A DNA stretch of 35,229 nt, taken from positions 1 to 35,229 of the forward strand of contig JAICXH010000020.1 in assembly GCA_025981645.1 (NCBI GenBank), written 5' to 3'. The notes under the pieces are model-generated. The model was not told the origin of the DNA and made no database searches. It saw nothing but the letters and a program-made list of their open reading frames with translations. This document shows positions 11,628 to 12,862 of the stretch, one piece after another. The DNA comes from Burkholderiales bacterium. GTDB taxonomy: Bacteria; Pseudomonadota; Gammaproteobacteria; Burkholderiales; Casimicrobiaceae. The position numbers were made by a program, and so were the translations under genes. Position 1 is the stretch's first letter. Each line of letters starts with the position of its first letter.

Positions 11628-12044
11628 TCACGCGTCGTTGATCGATACCTCGAAGGTGATCTCCGCCGACTTTGCGAGCATCGCGGTCGCCGAGCAGTAC
11701 TTCTCCTTCGACAGCTTGACCGCGCGCTCGACCTGATGCGGGTCGAGCCCGCTGCCCGCCACGCTGTACCTGAGATGGATACGCGTAAACACGTGCGGAT
11801 CCTCGGTGGCCCGCTCCGCGTCGGCTTCGACGACGCAGTCGGCGACCGGCTGGCGCGCCTTCTTCAGGATCCAGATCACGTCGAATGCCGTGCAGGCGGC
11901 AGTCCCTGCGAGCACCAGCTCCATGGGCCGCATGCCGAGGTTGCGCCCGCCCGCCTCGGGGGCCCCGTCGACGACCATCGCGTGACCGCTTTCCGATTCG
12001 GCGACGAAGGACACGCCTTCGACCCACTTGACCCGCGTTTTCAT
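11628..12044 (-). CDS. OsmC/Ohr-family protein
   Basis: A 138-residue protein starting at the ATG at 12042-12044, preceded by the strong ribosome site GGGAGGCGG. The fold is OsmC-like: MKTRVKWVEGVSFVAESESG at the N-terminus, RPMELVLAGTAACTAFDV (about 45-62) carrying the first conserved Cys, and KEKYCSATAML near residue 115 carrying the second. These two cysteines form the peroxidatic pair that reduces organic hydroperoxides in OsmC and Ohr. The short length and sequence fit the generic YhfA-like OsmC subfamily more than Ohr, so the substrate is open. A longer open frame upstream crosses the small-RNA region and is not coding. Confidence 0.85.
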   Translation of the reverse strand: MKTRVKWVEGVSFVAESESGHAMVVDGAPEAGGRNLGMRPMELVLAGTAACTAFDVIWILKKARQPVADCVVEADAERATEDPHVFTRIHLRYSVAGSGLDPHQVERAVKLSKEKYCSATAMLAKSAEITFEVSINDA

Positions 12045-12116
12045 GTCCGCCTCCCGATCCGCCCCTCGATCCGCTCGAACCGCCCGAATCGCCCGCTCGC
12101 CGAGGTGGGGCTTGCA

Positions 12117-12145
12117 TTGTGCGCTGCAATATGGAATGCTATCAA
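12117..12145 (+). promoter_or_regulatory. Candidate promoter of the small RNA
   Basis: TTGTGC (12117-12122) and TATCAA (12140-12145) are spaced by 17 bases, and the -10 is preceded by TGC (12137-12139), giving the extended -10 form TGnTATnnn. The predicted start, near 12151-12153, falls at the foot of the first hairpin. Confidence 0.4.
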
Positions 12146-12150
12146 CCGTT

Positions 12151-12251
12151 CGCGGCCCCGCCGTCTCCTCCTTCGGCACCGCGAGCACATTCCTCCATTC
12201 TCCTCCTATGGTGGAATTCTCGGCGCGGCCCAACGGTCGCGCCGTTTTTTT
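12151..12251 (+). ncRNA. Candidate small RNA with two anti-Shine-Dalgarno hairpin loops
   Basis: Three consecutive hairpins on the plus strand. Hairpin 1: outer stem CGCGG/CCGCG (12151-12155, 12179-12183), inner stem GCCG/CGGC (12160-12163, 12174-12177), loop TCTCCTCCTT. Hairpin 2: ATTCCTCCAT/ATGGTGGAAT (12189-12198, 12208-12217), 9 of 10 pairs, loop TCTCCTCCT. Hairpin 3: the intrinsic terminator with a T run. The 9-base loop sequence is identical in both hairpins and resembles the anti-Shine-Dalgarno end of 16S rRNA. This design is known from alphaproteobacterial CcsR / 'cuckoo' small RNAs with CCUCCUCCC loops and other C-rich-loop small RNAs, which bind ribosome sites of target mRNAs. A promoter-like sequence sits at the right distance. 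It is not a family I can name, and expression is inferred. Confidence 0.55.
12221..12251 (+). terminator. Intrinsic terminator of the candidate small RNA
   Basis: CGGCGCG (12221-12227) pairs perfectly with CGCGCCG (12238-12244). Inner GCC/GGT pairs extend the stem to 10 bp around a CAAC loop, and seven T residues follow (12245-12251). No plus-strand protein gene ends upstream within 600 bases, so it most plausibly ends the small RNA. Confidence 0.85.
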
Positions 12252-12378
12252 GCCCGAATCCAGTGTTCCGCGCCGCAACAACCCGCAGAGCCGATCGGAA
12301 CTCGCGACCGCAGGCGCAGGCACGAGGGTATCGCGGCGGCTCTGGCGGGGCCGGGCACTGCGTTCCCGGCCGCCCGCG

Positions 12379-12408
12379 TTGACGCGACGTGCCGATCGCC
12401 CGTATAAT
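12379..12408 (+). promoter_or_regulatory. Sigma-70-type promoter of rplM-rpsI
   Basis: TTGACG (12379-12384) and TATAAT (12403-12408) are separated by 18 bases. The predicted start near 12415 leaves a leader of about 20 bases before the rplM ATG at 12434, too short for an autoregulatory leader structure. Confidence 0.8.
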
Positions 12409-12433: not shown

Positions 12434-12862
12434 ATGAAGACCTATTCCGCCCGGCCCGCCGACGTCAAGCGTGGCTGGTACGTGATCGACGCCACCGACA
12501 AGGTGCTCGGCCGGCTGGCGACCGAAGTTGCCGCACGGCTGCGCGGCAAGCACAAGCCGATCTTCACGCCGCATATCGACACCGGCGATTTCATCGTCAT
12601 CACCAACGTCGAAAAGCTCCGCGTCACCGGCCGAAAGAACGACGACAAGCTCTATCACCGCCACAGCGGCTATCCTGGCGGCATCACGACGACGACCTTT
12701 GGCGAAATGCAGTCGCGCTTTCCCGGCCGCGTGTTCGAGAAGGCCGTCAAGGGCATGCTCCCGAAGGGGCCGCTCGGCTATGCGATGCTGAAGAAGCTCA
12801 AGTGCTATGCCGGCCCGACGCACCCGCACTCAGCGCAGCAACCGATGACGCTCGACCTCTGA
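12434..12862 (+). CDS. rplM: 50S ribosomal protein L13
   Basis: 142 residues, the standard bacterial length. It begins [20 protein letters not shown] and contains the L13 signature region (KMLPKGPLG-like [21 protein letters not shown], about 109-129). L13 is an early-assembly protein that binds 23S rRNA in the large subunit. The ATG at 12434 is chosen over an upstream in-frame start because of the family N-terminus and the promoter position. rpsI follows 43 bases downstream in the usual rplM-rpsI operon. Confidence 0.98.

Follow-up and report, generated by a model that had tools for sequence, protein, structure and literature searches.

The window (the whole 35,229-base stretch of DNA analysed) contains a predicted small RNA (sRNA) between an osmC-family gene and rplM. 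The features of the locus are as follows.

11628..12044, minus strand: osmC-family gene, the divergent neighbour.
12112..12133, plus strand: PhaR-type operator palindrome, TTGCATTGTGCGCTGCAATATG, overlapping the -35 element and the spacer.
12112..12117, plus strand: -35 element TTGCAT, conserved and 17 nt from the -10 element in homologues.
12135..12140, plus strand: -10 element AATGCT (GATCCT, CATTAT, TTTAAT or CAGAAT in homologues).
12148..12251, plus strand: predicted sRNA, with the 5' end placed from the promoter; it has homologues and covariation.
12148..12186, plus strand: hairpin 1, with like folds in the homologues; its loop (12164-12173) contains UCUCCUCCU.
12189..12217, plus strand: hairpin 2, with a core homologous to RF02278; its loop (12199-12207) is also UCUCCUCCU.
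12221..12251, plus strand: intrinsic terminator, a 10-bp stem (12221-12244) followed by T7, with covariation.
12434..12862, plus strand: rplM (L13), the downstream neighbour.

There are exactly two copies of the 9-mer TCTCCTCCT in the window (12164-12172 and 12199-12207), where shuffling leads one to expect 0.12; none of 100 window shuffles had two. Both copies lie in hairpin loops. The original prediction described two adjacent hairpins with identical 9-base loops. The hairpins are adjacent and the 9-mers are where it placed them, but loop 1 is 10 nt long, with one extra T, and only loop 2 has 9 nt. Hairpin 1 is also longer than described. Once the 5' end is counted, it spans 12148-12186, with 8 outer and 4 inner pairs. 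The sRNA folds as a single strand at -42.7 kcal/mol (z -4.9), and none of 200 shuffles folded equally well.

The terminator stem of 10 bp with seven T residues was found as predicted. It belongs to neither neighbour, as had been argued, because osmC is divergent and a promoter-like site of rplM's own, matching at 11 of 12 positions, lies at 12379-12408. About 180 nt separate the element from rplM, which follows on the same strand, and this layout is kept in the Casimicrobiaceae loci holding both, as would be expected of an rplM leader or attenuator that yields no independent RNA. This explanation is very improbable given the strong terminator before rplM, the separate promoter-like site, and the related RNAs at rplM-less loci in other genomes.

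Searching 61 related genomes at the DNA level retrieved homologues from the same genus and family, with E values down to 1e-59. Where the hairpin-2 word occurs in named GTDB records, these are MAGs of uncultured bacteria labeled Burkholderiales, Betaproteobacteria, or Proteobacteria, and one is labeled Casimicrobiaceae. The homologues between osmC and rplM span one Burkholderiales family, Casimicrobiaceae by that one MAG label. Nearly all sufficiently long loci keep the order osmC(-), sRNA(+), rplM, rpsI, argC. Synteny and element are kept together; relatives with the flanking genes and without the stems and loops, which would have spoken against the original prediction, were not found.

The stems covary and loop 2 is fixed, as that prediction anticipated. 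Among 21 sequences, 21 of 30 pairs have double-sided changes (equally high score in 0 of 500 shuffles), including all 12 pairs of hairpin 1; these counts come from an alignment made with a structure-aware model fitted to the structure, and they lean towards that structure. Plain MAFFT places the outer stem of hairpin 1 wrongly, and the structure-aware model was used instead. The named structure was paired in 97.3% of cells, against 37-44% with the partners slid. The second loop, CUCCUCCU, is invariant while the stems covary strongly. Its word CTCCTCCT is present in 21 of 21 homologues and is unpaired in every fold. For the CU loop of hairpin 1, a clearly unpaired state is seen in just 14 of 21 homologues, which counts against the best explanation given below.

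Mechanical open reading frames cross the region on both strands, as they would if it were part of a coding sequence. The compensatory changes and indels over the 21 homologues fit an RNA structure and not codons, and two copies of the 9-mer occurred in no shuffle. Coding sequence or chance hairpins are thus scarcely credible. The element at 12148-12251 is almost certainly a real conserved sRNA, with a predicted transcript.

At gathering thresholds, Rfam reported only a tRNA in the whole window. The sub-threshold matches of the RNA are to RF02278, ar14, NmsRb, mmgR, and CcsR1. The RF02278 match (12190-12251) covers the full model, 1-64 of 64, at 34 bits, below the gathering threshold of 50 bits. 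The Casimicrobiaceae homologues score 31-34 bits. Hairpin 2 and the terminator reproduce the two-hairpin architecture of that family, a CU-loop hairpin and then a terminator. Canonical members occupy the osmC-rplM slot in other families (L104, L106, L110, L114, and L118). The threshold was passed by 15 of 20 further loci scanned, five of them between osmC and rplM. Since canonical members share the slot, the window RNA is in all likelihood a divergent RF02278 relative. It is probably the RF02278 orthologue at this slot, with hairpin 1 added. A covariance model of the homologues has matches in 198 of 399 genomes of the order.

RF02278, the Betaproteobacteria toxic small RNA family, represents the Burkholderia double-hairpin RNAs, which PMC5688073 describes as raised in glucose medium and in starvation; growth inhibition of E. 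coli by the cloned RNA is a further criterion for membership. The Burkholderia RNAs ncS03/05/27/62 and Bordetella S17 share the homologous CU-loop hairpin and terminator with the window RNA. PMC11722255 reports the similarity of S17 to the Burkholderia RNAs, and its repression of one target and probably many transport genes through ribosome sites. In the group as a whole, CU stretches pair with the ribosome sites of transport and metabolism genes, according to PMC5688073 and PMC11722255. Unlike RF02278, the window RNA has an additional hairpin at its 5' end, carrying a second CU loop, and an operator inside its promoter. A CU motif 5' of the core was found in 12 of 107 related RNAs elsewhere.

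The CcsR/cuckoo and ar14 RNAs of Alphaproteobacteria also present anti-Shine-Dalgarno sequences in hairpin loops. A betaproteobacterial RNA of the same design as the alphaproteobacterial CCUCCUCCC RNAs had been proposed, and the design is borne out. The exact CCUCCUCCC word is absent from the window RNA, with its loops reading UCUCCUCCU. The scores are 19.2 bits against 65.3 for CcsR1 and 33.7 against 58.8 for ar14. CcsR/cuckoo membership was rejected on the CcsR1 score and the missing loop motif. The suggestion that the RNA was possibly undescribed holds only in part; it is not a CcsR/cuckoo member, and as a divergent RF02278 relative it is not wholly new. The betaproteobacterial NmsR/RcoF sibling sRNAs of Neisseria likewise have two unpaired CU-rich stretches directed at ribosome sites (24.4 bits against 52). 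They are tandem siblings with TCA-cycle targets, as described in PMC5688073.

MmgR has a CU-rich anti-Shine-Dalgarno design. It is the alpha-r8 RNA of Sinorhizobium meliloti (Rfam RF00519, suhB) and is repressed by PhaR (AniA), with a dyad between -35 and -10 (PMC8401924). The window RNA resembles it in having a predicted PhaR operator in the promoter. It differs in scoring 19.7 bits against a gathering score of 41, in belonging to another bacterial class, and in that phasin mRNA is not among its predicted targets. The relation is either parallel or very distant. By Rfam membership tests, the window RNA is formally outside MmgR, CcsR, and RF02278.

The promoter had been predicted with a 17-bp spacer. 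TTGCAT-17-AATGCT is present, and its position and spacing are conserved, but both elements match the consensus poorly (3 of 6 each), and a generic promoter scanner missed it. Several homologues have a better -10 element (CATTAT, TTTAAT, or CATGAT). The original prediction did not mention the operator, which we consider the most informative feature, as it suggests both a signal and a function. A TGCN3GCA core is present in 20 of 21 aligned homologues, and the remaining one has CGCN3GCA. The palindrome in homologues is close to TTGCATTGTGC-NNN-GCAATATG across the -35 element and the spacer, with NNN overlapping the half-sites according to species. All 13 family phaP1 promoters examined contain two TGCN3GCA sites at a spacing of 56-57 bp, and three of these loci have additional matches of this type.

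PhbF of H. seropedicae was footprinted on this type of motif (PMC3206438), and S. meliloti PhaR binds mmgR in EMSA at the site CAATTGTGCACCGCAGCATTA (PMC12542648). The strict PhbF consensus, TGNTGCN3GCAA, was not enriched in the own genome (36 matches versus 49 for the reversed pattern). It was replaced by a matrix from 24 phaP-promoter sites of other genomes, with the own genome excluded. This matrix placed 12115-12132 first in the window at 15.4 bits; the next unrelated place scored 8.2. A palindromic matrix from 16 sites bound efficiently by S. meliloti PhaR in EMSA also ranked the sRNA promoter first (12.9 versus 9.4), although with this matrix alone the observed score was reached somewhere in 4 of 60 simulated windows. 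The own genome encodes phaR (PF05233) on contig C119, divergent from phaP. As expected for a member of a PhaR regulon, the operator has phaP-like flanks and lies at a promoter, and phaR is in the same genome. The sRNA is very probably under PhaR control.

A second, weaker PhaR-like site lies at 12264-12281, just past the terminator and about 150 bp downstream of the operator. Similar places were seen in L002, L014-L016, L020, and L021. It is possibly a looping site or due to chance. A minus-strand promoter-like sequence, TTGATA-18-CACAAT (12116-12145), points towards osmC. Since it overlaps the operator, PhaR might also control osmC at this locus.

The phaP matrix was applied to positions -110 to +15 of 107 related RNAs from genomes not used to train it, and a box was called at 10 bits or more. 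Boxes were found at 43 of 52 osmC-rplM sRNAs (in 16 families), at 21 of 55 other loci, and in 1.1% of 2,376 control windows drawn from those loci. Of the RNAs with a box, 58 had phaR in their genome and 6 did not, and of those without a box, 12 did and 31 did not (phaR scored as PF05233; P = 3e-11); this value, which like the target statistics ignores phylogeny, is optimistic because genomes of one family are not independent. Four of the six boxes in phaR-negative genomes are in incomplete MAGs, and two are apparently spurious on reading. At two loci without a box, L172 and L208, a box sits at the upstream limit of the scan and is partly cut off. Three osmC-rplM sRNAs of the phaR-positive family f32 fall below the threshold.

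The RF02278-group anti-Shine-Dalgarno sRNA could be real and its palindrome read by another regulator, with no special role for PHB. Compared with the strict PhbF consensus, the window operator has no leading TG, and its ATTG/CAAT arms are extended. Where phaR is missing, RF02278-type copies carry another dyad, ATTAGA-N-AAT, seen on 23 RNAs from such genomes and on 2 from phaR-positive ones, so the RNA family can change regulators. We consider another regulator unlikely here, as the site comes out top of the window with two independent PhaR matrices, the presence of the box follows phaR across the order, and phaP, the classic PhaR target, has a similar hairpin in its own 3' UTR. A ATATTAGAWAATTCTAATA-like dyad was seen near the -10 element of RF02278-type RNAs, mostly in phaR-less genomes (L109, L111-L113, L115, L117, L119, L122, L123, L125, L129, and others).

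The hairpin at phaP, a second one of anti-Shine-Dalgarno type, was found at these loci.

L077, 2057-2155: CU-loop hairpin and terminator in the phaP 3' UTR of the own genome (C119).
L071, L072, L074, L075, L076, L078, L079, L080, and L083: further phaP 3' UTR hairpins.

It reads CTGTATC...CTCCTCCT...GATACAG, is followed by a terminator, and lies downstream of phaP1 at 10 of 13 family loci. The word CTCCTCCT is invariant in these copies. They had no Rfam match at E 0.05. Of the 30 loci with the best order-wide matches to a model of this hairpin, 15 have it immediately 3' of a same-strand phaP match; three of the 15 belong to the training family, and phaR is nearby in nearly all. Six more of the 30 adjoin phaR, with no phaP detected. 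Many lower-scoring matches may be unrelated terminators. At L196 (G136, 2001-2095), in another family, a match to the RNA model lies directly 3' of a phasin ORF. It weakly resembles anti-hemB (29.5 bits, cut-off 49.5).

Candidate targets were sampled as AGGAGGAG-N4-9-ATG ORFs in eight genomes, by pattern and in limited stretches. Substrate-binding Pfam classes account for 34 of the 89 sampled ORFs if the classes are disjoint (Peripla_BP_6, 13; SBP_bac_1, 7; NMT1, 6; DctP, 4; TctC, 4). The control Shine-Dalgarno sequence AAGGAGGT gave 4 of 34 (Fisher P = 0.004); the enrichment is suggestive only, because sampling was incomplete and there were few control ORFs. In these genomes, strong Shine-Dalgarno sequences may simply be usual for substrate-binding proteins. 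On this pattern, repression of uptake genes by the sRNA is somewhat favored.

The sRNA might instead act mainly on phasin mRNA and limit granule formation, as proposed for MmgR, which reduces the amounts of PhaP1 and PhaP2 protein and is under PhaR repression (PMC8401924). The phaP ribosome sites at 13 Casimicrobiaceae loci do not contain AGGAGG, and their duplexes with the loop reach only -3.5 to -9.1 kcal/mol, which makes this improbable. As these sites do not fit the loops, phaP was dropped as a target.

Our preferred reading, with a probability of about 0.7, is a trans-acting sRNA that is repressed by PhaR, triggered by storage, and blocks the translation of uptake genes. The sequence evidence behind it is the conserved RNA fold, the synteny, the relatedness to RF02278, and an operator whose presence goes with phaR. 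PhaR would repress the sRNA from the operator overlapping its promoter. When PHB granules form, they would bind PhaR and take it off the operator, and the phasin and the sRNAs would then be made together. The sRNA would use Hfq. Its two CU-rich loops would pair with AGGAGGAG-type Shine-Dalgarno sequences and block translation, above all of periplasmic substrate-binding proteins, and uptake would fall once carbon is stored. Predicted in this model are transcription, PhaR binding, release by PHB, the involvement of Hfq, which mRNAs are targeted, and that they are repressed.

The RNA itself is close to a known family, and the link of this kind of sRNA to PHB storage appears to be new. A PhaR or PHB link is not named for the double-hairpin RNAs or S17 in the consulted parts of PMC5688073 and PMC11722255. 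The cause of accumulation of Burkholderia cenocepacia sRNAs, including the double-hairpin ones, is stated to be unknown in PMC5688073, and PMC8401924 calls the riboregulation of PHB in Cupriavidus necator undeciphered. Both questions would have one directly testable answer in a PhaR operator on these RNAs. There is an even chance that PhaR controls storage-coupled anti-Shine-Dalgarno sRNAs throughout the Betaproteobacteria, as stand-alone RNAs between osmC and rplM and as RNAs released from phaP 3' UTRs. They would report PHB granules and damp the translation of nutrient uptake genes as a counterpart of MmgR, and PhaR would be the missing regulator of many RF02278 RNAs. The operator would tie carbon storage to RNA control of uptake. 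It may also be relevant to the production of bioplastics, a field in which PhaR and phasins serve as targets for engineering.
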